A stretch of 64,000 nt of DNA from Mesotoga sp. Brook.08.105.5.1 (lineage in GTDB: Bacteria > Thermotogota > Thermotogae > Petrotogales > Kosmotogaceae): assembly GCF_002752635.1 (NCBI RefSeq), contig NZ_AYTW01000005.1:62001-126000 (forward strand), written 5' to 3'. This document shows positions 37,298-43,885 of this stretch, one piece after another. Within the stretch, counting starts at the first letter, position 1. Every line of letters starts with the position of its first letter. A program made the position numbers and the translations under genes. The notes beneath the pieces are model-generated. The model did not search any database. It was not told the origin of the DNA and saw only the letters and a list, made by a program, of their open reading frames with translations.

Positions 37298-37502
37298 AGT
37301 GACCCCCCGATCGTGAGTTAGTGTTATTCTACTTCGAAAGCAATGAGAGTTTGTGAATGTTTTGCGAACGAGTTGGTAACCAAGTTGGAATGGAATGATA
37401 AATTAATCGACATTAGTAGCATTTATGATTCTAGTGAAGTTCCGCTTTTCAAATAGTAGATTTGGCTTGAAATTCATGATGAGCAGCTGCAGAGTTACTA
37501 AG

Positions 37503-37529
37503 TTGACCAATATGTGAAATAAATCACAT
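37503..37529 (+). promoter_or_regulatory. Perfect inverted repeat (Crp/Fnr-like) before the sulfur operon
   Basis: ATGTGA-AATAAA-TCACAT at 37512-37529, a perfect palindrome that contains TGTGA-N6-TCACA, the consensus for Crp/Fnr-family dimers. TTGACC at 37503-37508 looks like a -35 box; a -10 box is not clear. The repeat ends 3 bases before the AGGAGGT of the tusA-like gene, so a bound protein would most simply act as repressor. Which protein binds is unknown; no Crp/Fnr gene is in the window, while an HTH-TusA protein is encoded in the same cluster. Confidence 0.65.
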
Positions 37530-37545
37530 TACAGGAGGTATGAAA

Positions 37546-37785
37546 ATGGCGAAGTATGAAGTAACTAAGTCTGTTGACGTAAGAGGAGAAGTCTGTCCAG
37601 TACCGGATGTTGAAACCAAGAGGGCTCTGAAGAAGATGAAAGCCGGAGAGATACTCGAGGTTTGGATTGACTATGCCATGTCGAAAGAGAGAATTCCCGA
37701 GGCAGTCAAGGGAATGGGACACGAAGTTCTCGAAATCGAGGAAGTCGGGAACAGCGAGTGGAAGATCTATATCAAAGTAAAGTGA
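37546..37785 (+). CDS. tusA: TusA-family sulfur carrier protein
   Basis: A 79-residue TusA protein that carries a persulfide on a conserved Cys. The signature RGEVCPVPDVETKRAL gives the active Cys, followed by GEILEVWIDY and SKERIPEAVKGMGHEV. Start at the ATG at 37546, seven bases after AGGAGGT; the ATG at 37540 is too close to it. First gene of the run tusA - yeeE - dsrE - dsrF - dsrH. Its sequence closely resembles the C-terminal domain of the regulator at 39870-40448. Confidence 0.93.
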   Translation: MAKYEVTKSVDVRGEVCPVPDVETKRALKKMKAGEILEVWIDYAMSKERIPEAVKGMGHEVLEIEEVGNSEWKIYIKVK

Positions 37786-37803: not shown

Positions 37804-38793
37804 ATGGCCTGGACGGGTCTATTAGTTGGTCTCGTTTTTGGAATCATTCTTCAAAGAGGCAGAGTGTGTTTCAACTCGGCTTTTAGGGATGTTTTGTTAT
37901 TTAAGGATAATTACCTTTGGAAACTGGGTTTTCTTGCAGTCGGGTTACAGATGATCACCGTTCTCTTTGTGGCTCAGATGGGCTGGATAAGGATTGCTCC
38001 TCCGACGCTTAATCTGTTTGGGAATATTGTTGGTGCCTATGTATTTGGGCTGGGAATGGTTCTCGCCGGTGGATGTGCGTCAGGTGTTACTTATAGGTCC
38101 GGAGAGGGAATGACAACCGCAATGATAGCCGCGGTCTTTTACGGTATAGGAGCTATGGCAATGAGAGGAGGAGTATTTTCACCCATAAGGACTTGGGCGG
38201 CGCAATTTAACATAACAGTTGATGGGAATTCTTCCGTATATTTTGACAAGGTAGGGCCCACACTCGCGACAGTCCTGAATGTTAATCCCTGGATCCCTGC
38301 AGTAATACTAGCAGCTGTCTTACTTTGGTACACGCTTGGCACGAAGACCACGGAGAGAAAGACTAAGTTCAACTGGAAAGTTGCTGCGGTATCTCTCGCT
38401 GTTCTTTCTCCCATTGCATGGATAACAAGCGAGGCTGCTGGTCGAAATTACGGACTTGGTATCACCGGTGGTTGGGTCTCGATATTTGACTCCTACATCA
38501 GTAATCAGCCACTGAGATGGGATGGGTACGAAATAATCGGAATAATTCTGGGAGCACTCATCGCGTCAGTAATCGCCAAAGAATTCAAGTTGAGGATGCC
38601 GAAGAATCCGAAGACTTATCTCGTGGTTATGATAGGTGGAACAATGATGGGAGCAGGAGCTAACCTTGCCGGTGGATGTAATATCGGGCATTTCCTTTCC
38701 GGACTTCCAACTCTTGCCATTTCGTCAATAATCGCAAGTGTCTTCCTTATTCTCGGCAACTGGACAATGGCTTACATACTTTACAGAAAGTGA
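37804..38793 (+). CDS. YeeE/YedE-family sulfur (thiosulfate) transporter
   Basis: A 329-residue multi-helix membrane protein of the YeeE/YedE (TsuA) family, whose studied members import thiosulfate. Conserved Cys-bearing loops are present: RGRVCFNSAFRD, LAGGCASGVTYR and LAGGCNIGHFLSGL, the Cys residues thought to pass the substrate through the pore. ATG at 37804, 18 bases after tusA. Linked YeeE and TusA genes are common, and the transported sulfur is presumably handed to TusA. Confidence 0.92.
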   Translation: MAWTGLLVGLVFGIILQRGRVCFNSAFRDVLLFKDNYLWKLGFLAVGLQMITVLFVAQMGWIRIAPPTLNLFGNIVGAYVFGLGMVLAGGCASGVTYRSGEGMTTAMIAAVFYGIGAMAMRGGVFSPIRTWAAQFNITVDGNSSVYFDKVGPTLATVLNVNPWIPAVILAAVLLWYTLGTKTTERKTKFNWKVAAVSLAVLSPIAWITSEAAGRNYGLGITGGWVSIFDSYISNQPLRWDGYEIIGIILGALIASVIAKEFKLRMPKNPKTYLVVMIGGTMMGAGANLAGGCNIGHFLSGLPTLAISSIIASVFLILGNWTMAYILYRK

Positions 38794-38803
38794 GGCGTCT
38801 GAT

Positions 38804-39160
38804 TTGAAGATTACAATCCAGGTTTTTGCACCACCGTATTCATATGAGGATCTTGACACAGCAATTAAGATCGCGGAAGCAGGACTTGATAAAGGCCACG
38901 AAGTGACGGTTTTCCTCTTTGCCGATTCAATACTATCCGTTAACAGCAAAGTCAAACCGATAAGGATAGATAGAGACATTCCACGAAAACTCGAATCGCT
39001 AATACAAGAGAAGGGTTTGAAAGTGGAGATCTGCGGAATCTGTATGGACTACAGAGGTGTAACCAAGGATATGATTATCGAAGGTTCAAATCCAAGTGGT
39101 CTTCCCGAACTGGCTTCATTGATTTACAACAGCGACAGGTTTGTTAACCTGATGGCATGA
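38804..39160 (+). CDS. DsrE-family sulfur-relay protein (TusD/DsrE-like)
   Basis: A 118-residue DsrE-fold protein. It has ITIQVFAPPYSYEDLDTAIK at the start, KGHEVTVFLFADS, and a likely active Cys in EICGICMDYRGV, the site used by DsrE/TusD to accept persulfide. It begins at the TTG at 38804 with GAGG upstream, 10 bases after the transporter stop; an in-frame ATG at 38738 would lie inside the transporter gene. Overlaps the next frame's upstream ATG in an ATGA manner. Confidence 0.85.
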   Translation: MKITIQVFAPPYSYEDLDTAIKIAEAGLDKGHEVTVFLFADSILSVNSKVKPIRIDRDIPRKLESLIQEKGLKVEICGICMDYRGVTKDMIIEGSNPSGLPELASLIYNSDRFVNLMA

Positions 39161-39168
39161 GGTGCTGT

Positions 39169-39525
39169 ATGGATAAGAAGATACTGTTTGTTGTTTATCA
39201 GGCTCCAGCAGGCTCTATTTGGGTCAATGAAGCCTTTAGGACTGCATTTGGAATGTATGGCGAAGATATTGAGCCATCTGTTCTTTTGATGGAAGAGGCA
39301 AGTGTTGCTTTTTCAAAGAAGACTAAGCCTGAATGTCTTGGCCTGCTCTCGATCTCCATGTGTTTTAGGTTTATCAAGAGGTACGAGACAGCAGTTTATG
39401 GTGTCAAAGAACATGTGGAAAAACTGAAAGTAAATGAAATCGAAGAGAGTTTCAGTGCACAATTAATAGCTGAAGCCGATATCGGAGAGTTCTTCCACAA
39501 GTTTGACAATGTAATCTTCATGTGA
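39169..39525 (+). CDS. DsrF/TusC-like protein
   Basis: A 118-residue protein starting KKILFVVYQAPAGSIWVNEA, with the small alpha/beta shape of TusC/DsrF. The Cys seen (PECLGLL, MCFRF) are not in the DsrE active position, consistent with the structural role of TusC. Start at the ATG at 39169 with GAGGTG; the ATG at 39157 lacks one. The family call rests on size, fold pattern and place between DsrE-like and DsrH-like genes. Confidence 0.75.
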   Translation: MDKKILFVVYQAPAGSIWVNEAFRTAFGMYGEDIEPSVLLMEEASVAFSKKTKPECLGLLSISMCFRFIKRYETAVYGVKEHVEKLKVNEIEESFSAQLIAEADIGEFFHKFDNVIFM

Positions 39526-39535
39526 GGTGTCTGGT

Positions 39536-39799
39536 ATGTATTTAATAGTAGTGAAAAACGGGCCCAATAATTCTGCCGATAGAATCAAGATCAGTGCGGC
39601 GAAAGATGGGGACAAGGTTGTCCTAATTCAGGACGGTGTTTTTTGGGGACTAAACGAATTGACCACAAAGGCGGAGGTCTTTGCTATTAAGGACGATGTT
39701 GAGGCCAGGGGATACTCAGCTGATGACGTTACCGTGCCTCTGATAACTTATGAAGGCTTCATTGACATAGTTGAGGAATGTGAGAAGTCAATAGGTTAG
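39536..39799 (+). CDS. DsrH/TusB-like protein
   Basis: An 87-residue protein beginning MYLIVVKNG, with DKVVLIQDGVFWGL and a short C-terminus, the TusB/DsrH pattern. Only one Cys, near the C-terminus (EECEKS). Start at the ATG at 39536 after GAGGTG. Completes a TusBCD/DsrEFH-like trio, which in other bacteria is a hexameric sulfur-transfer hub for TusA. Confidence 0.8.
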   Translation: MYLIVVKNGPNNSADRIKISAAKDGDKVVLIQDGVFWGLNELTTKAEVFAIKDDVEARGYSADDVTVPLITYEGFIDIVEECEKSIG

Positions 39800-39869: not shown

Positions 39870-40448
39870 ATGCCATTAAAGCTTCCGGATTTGTTTCGCA
39901 CTTTCTCAAATCAGACAAGAATTGAAATAGTTACGATGCTGATGGACAACTTCCTAACTGCTTCAGAAATTGCGTCGCTACTTCAAATAGATTTGTCAAC
40001 TGTATACAGACATCTGCAGCAAATGAAGAAGCTTGGGATACTTACTTCAAGACATTTGCATGGCGTTGAGAGATTCGACTTCAGTTCTCCACACATTTTC
40101 AGAATGCTTGATGAGGCAATCTCCTTCATAACGGAACTTAAGGGATTCAAGCCAATTTCCTGCTCTGAGGGAATATGCAGTTATTATCTGGGGGGCGAGC
40201 TTGATGTCATCGAGCCTGACCAGCTTCTCGATATGAGAGGCGAATCTTGTCCAATTCCGGATATTCAAGCAAGAAAGACTCTGGAAAACATGAATCCTGG
40301 AGAGGTACTGATTGTTATTGTAGACTATCCGCTCTCGGGGGAGAGAATTCCTGTGTCTATTCAGAAAGAAGGCCATGAGGTAATCAAAAAGATAGTTGAT
40401 AAATACGGTGATATAAAGATTTATATAAGGAGGAGAGAAAATGCTTGA
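39870..40448 (+). CDS. ArsR-like HTH regulator fused to a TusA domain
   Basis: A 192-residue two-domain protein. Residues ~1-90 are a winged helix of ArsR type (TRIEIVTMLMDN, then TASEIASLLQIDLSTVYRHL as recognition unit). A linker holds Cys98 and Cys103 (CSEGIC). Residues ~117-192 are a full TusA domain with active Cys127 in RGESCPIPD and the same DYPLSGERIP...GHEV pattern as the tusA product at 37546. The ATG is preceded by GGGAGGG. It overlaps the flavoenzyme start by 8 bases. It most likely senses persulfide or sulfur-carrier state and controls this cluster; that is inference, as is binding to the palindrome at 37512. Confidence 0.88.
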   Translation: MPLKLPDLFRTFSNQTRIEIVTMLMDNFLTASEIASLLQIDLSTVYRHLQQMKKLGILTSRHLHGVERFDFSSPHIFRMLDEAISFITELKGFKPISCSEGICSYYLGGELDVIEPDQLLDMRGESCPIPDIQARKTLENMNPGEVLIVIVDYPLSGERIPVSIQKEGHEVIKKIVDKYGDIKIYIRRRENA

Positions 40449-41802
40449 TGCGGTTGTAATTGGTGGTGGGCCTGGCGGTTATGTTTGTGCAATAAGAATT
40501 GCTCAGCTGGGTAAGAGAGTTGCGCTCGTTGAAAAGGAACATCTCGGTGGGACGTGCACAAACTGGGGCTGCATTCCAACAAAAGCGATGCTGACTTCGG
40601 CCCATTTGTATACCGAAATAGCTGACAAGTCAAAGAGACTTGGAATCGAAATATCCGATCTTGATTATGATCTGAAGAAAATCATGGCTCACATGAATAG
40701 AACGATCACGATGTCTAGAAAAGGGATTGAACACCTCTTGAAGAAAAACGAAGTTGATTTCTTCAATGACACGGCTGTGATTAAGGATGCAAAGCACGTC
40801 CTCCTGGAGCAGAGAGGGGAGATTCTGGATACGAATAATATTGTTATCGCAAGTGGATCTGAACCCTCCATGTTTAGGCCATTCAGTGAAGTCGAAGGAA
40901 TCTGGACAAGCAACGACGTTTTTCGAATGGAAGAAATGCCAGAAAGTCTAGTAATTGTTGGCGGTGGTGTTATAGGAGTTGAGTTTGCAACATTCTTCAG
41001 TTCATTCGGAGTGAAGACTACTATCGTCGAACTTGCAGACCATATCCTTCCATACGAGGATAGAGATGTTGCCGACGATATTCGAAAGTCATTGACAAGG
41101 CAAGGAGTAGAGATAATAGAGAGAACAAAGGTGACAGAGGTGGAGAAGGAGGAATGTACCTTCATTCTGAATGCCGAAGGTGAACAGGAGCTCTCACTCC
41201 AGGCTGAGAAAGTTCTTGTCGCAGTCGGTAGGCGACCGAGCATTAGCGAAGACGTAAGAAATCTTGGCCTCGAAATTGAAAGAGGAGTCATTACGAACAG
41301 CCGAATGCAGACAAACATTAAGGGCATTTATGCTATTGGCGACATAAGAGCCGGAACAATGCTTGCTCACGTGGCCAGCTACGAGGGGATAGTAGCGGCT
41401 CACAACATTGCTGGAGAAGAGATCGAAATGGATTACTCGGCAGTTCCCTCGATTATTTTCTCCAGCCCAGAGGTAGGATCAACCGGGATAAGGGAAGACG
41501 ACATCGAAGACATGGAGAAAGTAAGTATCGCAAAATTCCCTTTGAGCGCAAATGGTAGAGCAAGAACTGTACTAGAAAACACTGGGTTTGTGAAGGTAAT
41601 AGCAGATAAGGAAAGTGGAAAGGTTCTTGGTATGAGTATAGTTTCTCCTTCAGCTACAGAGCTAATAATGGAAGGGGTAATTGCGGTCAAGAACGGTTTA
41701 ACGGTAGAAGAACTTGAGAACTCAATACATCCTCATCCTACGCTATCAGAGACAGTACTTGGTGCCCTAGAGGGTATTGATGGAATGAGCATCCATATCT
41801 AA
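40441..41802 (+). CDS. Dihydrolipoamide dehydrogenase-type flavoprotein disulfide reductase
   Basis: A 453-residue pyridine-nucleotide disulfide oxidoreductase. It has an FAD fold DAVVIGGGPGGYVCAIRIAQ, redox disulfide GGTCTNWGCIPTK, NAD fold LVIVGGGVIGVEFATFFSSF, and the interface His-Glu motif HPHPTLSE typical of E3 (usually HAHPTLSE). No lipoyl enzyme (E1/E2) is nearby. In this sulfur operon it may reduce a lipoyl-, CoA- or protein-bound persulfide, using NADH. It shares an 8-base overlap with the regulator gene. Confidence 0.88.
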   Translation: MLDAVVIGGGPGGYVCAIRIAQLGKRVALVEKEHLGGTCTNWGCIPTKAMLTSAHLYTEIADKSKRLGIEISDLDYDLKKIMAHMNRTITMSRKGIEHLLKKNEVDFFNDTAVIKDAKHVLLEQRGEILDTNNIVIASGSEPSMFRPFSEVEGIWTSNDVFRMEEMPESLVIVGGGVIGVEFATFFSSFGVKTTIVELADHILPYEDRDVADDIRKSLTRQGVEIIERTKVTEVEKEECTFILNAEGEQELSLQAEKVLVAVGRRPSISEDVRNLGLEIERGVITNSRMQTNIKGIYAIGDIRAGTMLAHVASYEGIVAAHNIAGEEIEMDYSAVPSIIFSSPEVGSTGIREDDIEDMEKVSIAKFPLSANGRARTVLENTGFVKVIADKESGKVLGMSIVSPSATELIMEGVIAVKNGLTVEELENSIHPHPTLSETVLGALEGIDGMSIHI

Positions 41803-42003: not shown

Positions 42004-43674
42004 TTAGAAGTCTTTCGAATAAATATTCTTCGTCTGGCTGAAGACCTCTGTCTTAGCAAAAGTATGCTTGTAAAACTTCAGATCCAGCTTAATCATTATA
42101 TGGCCCTCAGTCTCAAAATCGAGTTCAGCCTTAGTTTCGTTTACTCTTGCAGAGAAACCGACTGGCATCTCCATCTCCGGACGAAGGACACAGGCAATAG
42201 TTACTCCCGGATAAAACTTGAAGCCAAACTTTCCTTCTATCTCAGGGGATCCGTCAAATTCGATCTTATCAACAAAGGTTGCATTGTGGTCAATAGAGCC
42301 CCTTGAATAGCATCTGTCATGAACGCCGTAGAAGTCGATCTTTGCCTCGACTTCATAATGAAATTTCGGAGAAATCCGAATCTCGGGACCGAATTGAAGA
42401 TCAATGCTTGCGACTTTTGCTTCCATTCCATAGAACAGCTTAATCGGTACGCTGATTTTTACGGGGATTCCGCATACGCTAATGCTTACCTGTGGTTCAG
42501 CAATTTTCTCCGTTTGTCCAGTCTTAAACCCTTCCTCTCCAACTATCTCGAGTATCGAAGAGAGTGTTGCCGGAAAGCGAAACGTTCCATTAGAGCTGAA
42601 TTTGTTCAAAGAAAGATGAAAATCAAGGCTGATATTTGCGTCAAGGATCAGTTTGTTCTTGATTGCAGCCTTCATCTCATCCTCGTCAATGATTGATACA
42701 TCCCATTCTTTTGTGATCAGGTTTGTTGTTACACTCTCTGCAAAGGCACGATCTCCTTCAGTTCCAAATTTCTGTATGATTTCTGATACATCACCCTCAA
42801 TGTTCAGTATCAAAGTGCCCAGCGCCTCTTCTACAAAAGCTTCTTCAGTTCCTAGTGTTACTTTTGAAGGGTCGGTATCATTCACGGAAATAACTCTTCC
42901 GAAAGAGTCGTTCATTGTGTCAAAAATGTAATCACCGAGAGAGAAGTGAGGGATAGAAGACGTCTTCGAAAACACTATTTGGTTTTCCGATTCACAGGGC
43001 TCTTGTAAAAGAAGAGAAGAGTTGATCACAAGCGATCTGGGCACAGAATTGCTAATTGCAATGACGCCTCTTGGAAATCTGGTTGAAGAAACCATTGGCG
43101 GTTGCTGGACTCTGAAAAGAACTTTTCTGAAGGAATGAGGGCCGGAGTTCTCTTCATCTGGTATATCGTGTCTAAAGGTTAGAAGATATCCATCGCTAAT
43201 ATTTGGATTGTGCACGCCGGCACCAGACTGATATAAGGCACCGGAGAACAAATCAGTATCAGATAAACTCGAGAAATCCTGAGATCCTTCAGAAACCGGG
43301 TGAAAAACAGAGTCAACGCGCTTGATGATTGTACCTTTTGAATCGTAAATCAGATACTCATATTCAATGCCTGTCACATCTATGGATTTGATATAGAGGT
43401 AACCAAAGTTTCTCTCTGCAATAGAAGAACCTTCTTCAGGTGTCCACTCCATTCTAAGATCCTGAAACGCAATCAGAGTTCCTTTTCCCAAATGTGAGAT
43501 CGACATGTCTGAAGGCGAAAAGAGGAGACCACCTCCATAATAAGCACCGTCGTTAAGTTCTTCAAAGGGGACCCTAACGACAACCGGATTATCCACAACA
43601 ATGCACGAAGAAATAGAAAAGACAACGAAAAATGCTGCTACAAACAACAAAATCGTTTTTGTTAAGCTCTTCAC
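42004..43674 (-). CDS. Large lipoprotein of unknown function
   Basis: A 556-residue protein with a signal peptide and lipobox (FFVVFSISSC), so probably lipid-anchored outside the membrane. The body is beta-rich with many Ser/Thr/Asp; the last ~200 residues read as long amphipathic strands (such as KISVPIKLFYGMEAKVASID). No family recognised. GTG start at 43674 with GGAGGTGGGCT upstream. The ~170 bases before it (43680-43850) are very AT-rich and probably hold its promoter, but no unambiguous -35/-10 pair stands out. Confidence 0.72.
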   Translation of the reverse strand: MKSLTKTILLFVAAFFVVFSISSCIVVDNPVVVRVPFEELNDGAYYGGGLLFSPSDMSISHLGKGTLIAFQDLRMEWTPEEGSSIAERNFGYLYIKSIDVTGIEYEYLIYDSKGTIIKRVDSVFHPVSEGSQDFSSLSDTDLFSGALYQSGAGVHNPNISDGYLLTFRHDIPDEENSGPHSFRKVLFRVQQPPMVSSTRFPRGVIAISNSVPRSLVINSSLLLQEPCESENQIVFSKTSSIPHFSLGDYIFDTMNDSFGRVISVNDTDPSKVTLGTEEAFVEEALGTLILNIEGDVSEIIQKFGTEGDRAFAESVTTNLITKEWDVSIIDEDEMKAAIKNKLILDANISLDFHLSLNKFSSNGTFRFPATLSSILEIVGEEGFKTGQTEKIAEPQVSISVCGIPVKISVPIKLFYGMEAKVASIDLQFGPEIRISPKFHYEVEAKIDFYGVHDRCYSRGSIDHNATFVDKIEFDGSPEIEGKFGFKFYPGVTIACVLRPEMEMPVGFSARVNETKAELDFETEGHIMIKLDLKFYKHTFAKTEVFSQTKNIYSKDF

Positions 43675-43885
43675 AGCCCACCTCCAGGAAACAAATAAGT
43701 CAATGATAAGCTTAAATTCCGCAAGATTAAAAAATAAAGATAATGAAAAAACTATACTATTTGATCAAAAAATATCTCGGTAAGAACCAAGAACATTTAT
43801 TCACAAAATTACAATATATATTTTAACACATTTTCAAGCCCACGATGAGAATAAAGATAGTCCGAATACTCAAATTAGAAAGCCT

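Follow-up and report, generated by a model that had tools for sequence, protein, structure and literature searches.

A predicted Rex operator precedes the thiosulfate uptake and sulfur-relay operon of Mesotoga

The repressor Rex senses NAD(H): it binds DNA with NAD+ and leaves it with NADH (PMC8836258). Rex operators are palindromes of 18-20 bp with the published consensus TTGTGAANNNNTTCACAA (PMC6391272), and a study of S. aureus gives the site in that organism as TTGTGAAW4TTCACAA (PMC2883068). In T. maritima, which belongs to the same phylum as Mesotoga, Rex was crystallised on a 22-bp operator of TM0201, ATTTGAGAAATTTATCACAAAA, in which Gua5 and Ade8 are conserved; genes for hydrogen production are reportedly under the control of this Rex (PMC8836258), and PMC3561251 lists TM0201 as a gene for a hydrogenase. 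T. maritima also possesses a yeeE/dsrE/tusA cluster (TM0983 region) that is induced 42.6-fold by thiosulfate, and for which the accessible portion of the report names no regulator (PMC9431562). A third point of comparison is provided by SoxR and sHdrR of Hyphomicrobium, ArsR-type sulfane-sulfur repressors of thiosulfate oxidation. Neither is known to have a fused TusA domain.

The window considered here, that is, the whole 64-kb stretch of DNA that was analysed, contains a gene cluster of the same kind as that at TM0983. It is preceded by an exact inverted repeat with the TTGTGA-N6-TCACAA geometry of the T. maritima Rex operators (TM0201 and others; ternary structure 7WB3). The site here is predicted, and its target differs from those of the T. 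maritima operators, being an operon for thiosulfate uptake and sulfur relay:

37377..37390, + strand: second conserved promoter element, TAACCAAGTTGGAA (TWACCAA box), a candidate HTH-TusA site (conservation; operon-specific in the genome of the window, G000)
37424..37429, + strand: probable -10 box, TATGAT, 47 bp after the start of the TWACCAA box
37512..37529, + strand: predicted Rex operator, ATGTGAAATAAATCACAT (exact inverted repeat, conservation, shared redox targets, fit to the Rex consensus)
37533..37538, + strand: ribosome-binding site AGGAGG of tusA (sequence; GGAG invariant in the upstream alignment)
37546..37785, + strand: tusA, TusA/YeeD-like sulfur carrier (Pfam TusA, 2.1e-24; start by comparison)
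37804..38793, + strand: tsuA/yeeE thiosulfate transporter (NCBIfam NF052577 'thiosulfate transporter TsuA', 5.5e-166, above cut-off)
38738..39160 (ORF as listed), + strand: DsrE/TusD-like protein (Pfam DsrE, 2.8e-20)
39157..39525, + strand: DsrF/TusC-position protein (conserved in the operon; without a family match)
39527..39799, + strand: DsrH/TusB-like protein (Pfam DsrH, 4.2e-12; TIGR03011)
39870..40448, + strand: HTH-TusA, an ArsR-type HTH fused to TusA, candidate pathway-specific regulator (Pfam HTH_5, 1.4e-10; TusA, 3.9e-18)
40441..41802, + strand: dihydrolipoyl dehydrogenase-like flavoprotein (TIGR01350, 2e-163)

The TusA encoded here is closest to TM0983, which is also the nearest solved protein (1.8e-41). 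Its start is most likely ATG 37546, replacing ATG 37540, because the ATG at 37540 has no counterpart in genomes G001 and G002 and the spacing at 37546, 7 bases 3' of AGGAGG, is right. The true start of the DsrE/TusD-like protein may be further in, since the listed ORF overlaps yeeE. Orthologues of HTH-TusA are found in same-genus and in distant genomes, with the gene inside or beside the tusA operon in those that we read. In Thermotogaceae MAGs (L317, L318, L319), an HTH-TusA-like gene lies immediately 5' of tusA and not behind dsrH, and in G030, G032, and G035 (L043, L044, L045) a small stand-alone ArsR-type gene lies immediately 5' of HTH-TusA, beyond a convergent operon.

Reading of the sequence bore out the exact palindrome at 37512-37529 described in the earlier note, as well as its distance from the ribosome-binding site, which is the three bases 37530-37532; the spacer of this copy is not itself palindromic. 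A pattern scan found TGTGA-N6-TCACA only once as an exact match in the window, against a mean of 0.03 expected from 100 dinucleotide shuffles, so that the repeat is more than would arise by chance. Three exact matches occur in the whole genome (G000), versus one for the reversed control pattern. When two mismatches were allowed, the window held 41 matches against 34.6 expected, and loose matches within it are therefore uninformative. The notion that the repeat is a chance occurrence without function, for which it can be said that 3 of the 100 shuffles also yielded one such site per 64 kb, is extremely improbable, given that the repeat is a conserved island within a diverged upstream region in eight genomes and recurs before three other gene sets.

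Conservation was followed in the orthologous operons of close relatives, a check that the earlier note had proposed, and the site was present: each of the eight Mesotoga-type genomes whose tusA operon start is intact (G000-G005, G007, and G009) has it upstream of tusA. In G008 (L041, G008:C295), tusA and the start of yeeE are lost and the operator is degraded (TTGTAGTAAATCACAT). An alignment of nine genus members showed an upstream region that has diverged except for islands, namely the TWACCAA box, a TTTAT stretch, the repeat, and GGAGG. The repeat has the form TGTGAACTAAATCACA in most genus members, whilst in G003 and G007 (TGTGAATTATTTCACA) the match extends to 6-bp arms (TGTGAA-TTAT-TTCACA); its two outer bases vary among the Mesotoga-type genomes. 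More distant genomes have AAGTGAATAAAATCAC-type sites before tusA, with two such sites in G030 and G035. One GTGA-type site follows TATAAT by no more than about 15 bp in G026, G030, G035, and G054, and a second one lies 5' of the ribosome-binding site.

The same site is found before three other sets of genes, all with redox or NADH-linked products (nuoE/nuoF operon, 2Fe-2S protein, osmC). The second exact site of the genome lies 5' of a gene for an 85-aa 2Fe-2S protein, between TATAAT and the ribosome-binding site; six genus genomes retain it, and G001 has a degraded copy. The osmC site (TTGTGAAAGATATAACAA and variants) is present in nine genus genomes and in G011 and G012. An operon for a NuoE/NuoF-type NADH enzyme (genes assigned by Pfam) has GTGTGAAATAAATAACAT right after TATAAT, identical in all genus members read, including G006. 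Together with the conservation before tusA, this recurrence makes it very likely that the repeat is the binding site of a regulator, as the earlier note had supposed. The sites before osmC, the 2Fe-2S gene, and the NuoE/NuoF operon all lie 5' of the ribosome-binding site and usually just past a TATAAT box, where they would overlap the expected start of transcription, a position that looks repressor-like.

Several further matches appear in genome-wide lists with one or two mismatches, most of them without a clear gene partner. At G000:C16:4939-4956 (L136), two convergent genes flank a perfect Rex-consensus repeat, TTGTGAAGCGTTTCACAA, for which no target gene is obvious; G002, G004, G008, and G009 contain similar sequences in which one half has drifted. 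In the window itself, TTGTTAAGCTCTTCACAG at 43659-43676 is one mismatch from the Rex consensus and falls at the start codon of a minus-strand gene (42004-43674); it may be a coding coincidence. The osmC upstream regions (L145, L151, L152, L155, L159, L160) contain a further conserved palindrome-like element of the CCGAgTAATaTAaTCGG type, which is found in genus members, other Kosmotogaceae, and f3 genomes.

The earlier note had suggested that a repeat so close to the gene would suit either repression or blocking at the level of the mRNA. A repressor-type position remains plausible, whereas the mRNA part found no support. The arms can pair as RNA, 3 bases 5' of AGGAGG, and such a hairpin might hide or frame the ribosome-binding site. 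However, the folding energy of the leader is no better than that of shuffles (z = +1.0), and a role in the mRNA is therefore unsupported; an Rfam search of the leader gave no match, and the mismatched halves of other members of the site family (TGTGA...TAACA) would weaken a hairpin. We regard this reading as very improbable.

We consider it likely that the repeat is an operator of Rex, with Rex-NAD+ repressing the tusA operon and NADH releasing it. Taken together, the sites agree with the Rex consensus TTGTGAAnnnnTTCACAA, and in our own alignment Gua5 and Ade8 of the T. maritima operator correspond to positions 3 and 6 of the present sites. Among 28 distinct sites, G3 is found in 28, A6 in 26, T13 in 28, and C16 in 24. 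At the four positions that separate Rex sites from E. coli Crp sites, the same 28 sites have Rex letters in 69 and Crp letters in 34 of 112 cases, a count that is not a probability because the sites are related by descent. The Rex protein encoded in G000 scores above the cut-off of NF003993 (6.6e-76), and among solved structures is closest to T. maritima Rex (5zz5/7wb3, 8.7e-62). It shares 11 of the 12 DNA-contact residues listed for that protein, the one difference being at Glu34, which is listed as variable (PMC8836258); both systems, moreover, have targets of the redox/hydrogenase type. Of 61 genomes, 60 encode a Rex family protein, whose presence cannot discriminate between readings because it is nearly universal among the genomes compared.

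Upstream regions were also scored by their best match to TTGTKAAnnnnTTMACAA (14 scored positions, P by shuffles). All nine Mesotoga-type osmC regions have their best match at -33 to -34 from the start (P <= 0.007), and the eight Mesotoga-type tusA regions have theirs at -27 to -30, most of them beating the shuffles. In G044 and G038, neither of which encodes a protein with PF00027 (cNMP-binding, Crp/Fnr), the best match before tusA scores 12/14 at -28 (P 0.002 and 0.008, respectively); the two sites, TTGAGTAATTTTTCACAA in G038 and TTGATACTTTTTTCACAA in G044, are of the TTCACAA type and have the same offset. The window copy is a weaker match (11/14, P 0.049) and agrees with Crp at three of the four discriminating positions (1, 12, and 18), and the Rex assignment therefore rests on the family of sites and not on this copy alone. 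At position 12, most sites have A rather than T (16 versus 6). The tusA match in G004 has a P of 0.10, and those in G026, G035, G031, G043, G058, and G054, taken singly, are not above shuffles. The osmC genes of G013, G014, G033, and others are without such a site, though Rex is encoded. Unlike the osmC, 2Fe-2S, and nuoE sites, the Mesotoga tusA site has no clear -10 adjoining it. From these computed results (the site, its conservation, its sharing among genes, and the intact contact residues of Rex) we infer binding by Rex, the direction of its effect, and the physiological link.

The outer pentamers of the repeat are identical to those of the E. coli Crp site, TGTGA-N6-TCACA, and the earlier note had likened it to the Crp/Fnr consensus, whilst remarking that a Crp/Fnr gene is absent from the window; with respect to the tusA operon, we agree on the latter point. 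We initially favoured a Crp/Fnr protein, acting at a repressor operator, on account of an RPSLSR-type member of this family (G000:C41:63620-64294) that is encoded throughout the genus (10 of 10 genomes) as well as in G011 and G012; furthermore, G013 and G014, whose osmC genes are without the site, are also without this protein. This candidate was dropped because the Crp-less genomes G038 and G044 keep the TTCACAA-type site before tusA, and because the Rex consensus explains the irregular halves of the sites: the interior A and the TAACA-type halves match binding by the Rex family and not by Crp. In E. coli Crp, Glu181 reads TGTGA. The RPSLSR-type protein, the sole Crp/Fnr protein kept throughout the genus, has Pro in place of Glu181 and is without the Crp-type recognition helix R-E-x-x-x-R (RETVGR in E. 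coli Crp). No protein of the REVVSR type, with residues that would suit TGTGA, was found in G007, a genome with three such sites. The sites also overlap or follow the promoter, unlike those of Crp as an activator, so that interior bases, the genes that share the site, and its position all point away from Crp. A Crp/Fnr protein thus appears an unlikely binder.

HcpR-type regulators were considered as well. The RPSLSR-type Crp/Fnr gene is immediately preceded by GTAACA-N2-TGTTAC in many families (L190, L192-L195, L198, L200, L205), and its product may therefore recognise another site; the element, which was not seen in Mesotoga, is probably that regulator's own control site.

The earlier note had named HTH-TusA as a possible binder, which would then repress its own operon. 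Its gene lies in or beside the tusA operon, and in other organisms thiosulfate genes are under the control of ArsR-type sulfane-sulfur repressors (PMC12423496, PMC10451225). SoxR and sHdrR resemble the present case in that an ArsR-type HTH is linked to thiosulfate genes, but they serve oxidation whereas the present operon would serve reduction, and we saw no sign that such a protein binds the repeat. Three genomes without HTH-TusA retain the site, G011 and G012 upstream of osmC and G006 upstream of nuoE, and we therefore rejected HTH-TusA as the binder, a role that we judge highly unlikely. In addition, no such site was found near the separately transcribed HTH-TusA genes of G026, G030, G032, G054, and G060, and the TWACCAA box tracks the tusA operon better than the repeat does.

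T[TA]ACCAA, for which the expectation in any one region is 4%, is present upstream of tusA in 17 of 18 genomes and is conserved across families. In 13 of the 18 genomes, a hexamer that matches TATAAT at four or more of its six positions starts exactly 47 bp after the start of T[TA]ACCAA (46 bp in G030), and of all distances, 47 has the highest mean -10 score. The combined pattern of box and -10 occurs once per genome in G000, G001, G005, and G009, at the tusA operon. The Crp-less G038 and G044 keep the box, without a good -10 at 47. A sigma-70 scan gave no + strand promoter in the 37424-37429 region of the window because there is no good -35. TATGAT at 37424-37429 is nevertheless the best promoter candidate for the tusA of the window, and would probably place the repeat about 85 bp into the transcript. 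As judged from its distribution, the TWACCAA box resembles a binding site for a local regulator, perhaps an activator, and is a better candidate than the repeat for the site of HTH-TusA, although separately transcribed HTH-TusA genes are mostly without it.

If Rex does bind the repeat, then, when electrons are scarce, an NAD+-bound dimer would sit on TTGTGA-N6-TCACAA between the promoter and the ribosome-binding site and keep the tusA-tsuA/yeeE-dsrEFH-HTH-TusA-lpd operon low, probably as a roadblock about 85 bp past the predicted start, or by acting on a second start near the repeat. A build-up of NADH would release Rex, thiosulfate uptake and sulfur-relay proteins would be made, and sulfur would serve as an electron sink. 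A separate sulfur signal would probably enter via another regulator, perhaps HTH-TusA, at the TWACCAA box. More tentatively, the promoter may have two inputs. Rex would read NADH via the repeat, whilst the ArsR-TusA fusion would act at the TWACCAA box as a sensor derived from a sulfur carrier, receiving its sulfur from the pathway to which it belongs; the operon would then be on only when there are both excess electrons and usable sulfur.

Rex operators are already well known, also in the Thermotogota; the new part is the target operon, which may itself already be in the published Thermotogales Rex regulon. Several Thermotogota dispose of electrons via sulfur or thiosulfate. A Rex site at tusA, if true, would mean that a known sensor explains how uptake of this acceptor is matched to NADH, and would bring thiosulfate uptake, osmC, and NuoE/NuoF-type enzymes into one regulon. 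It would also separate the redox signal from the sulfur signal, and give HTH-TusA a specific candidate site.
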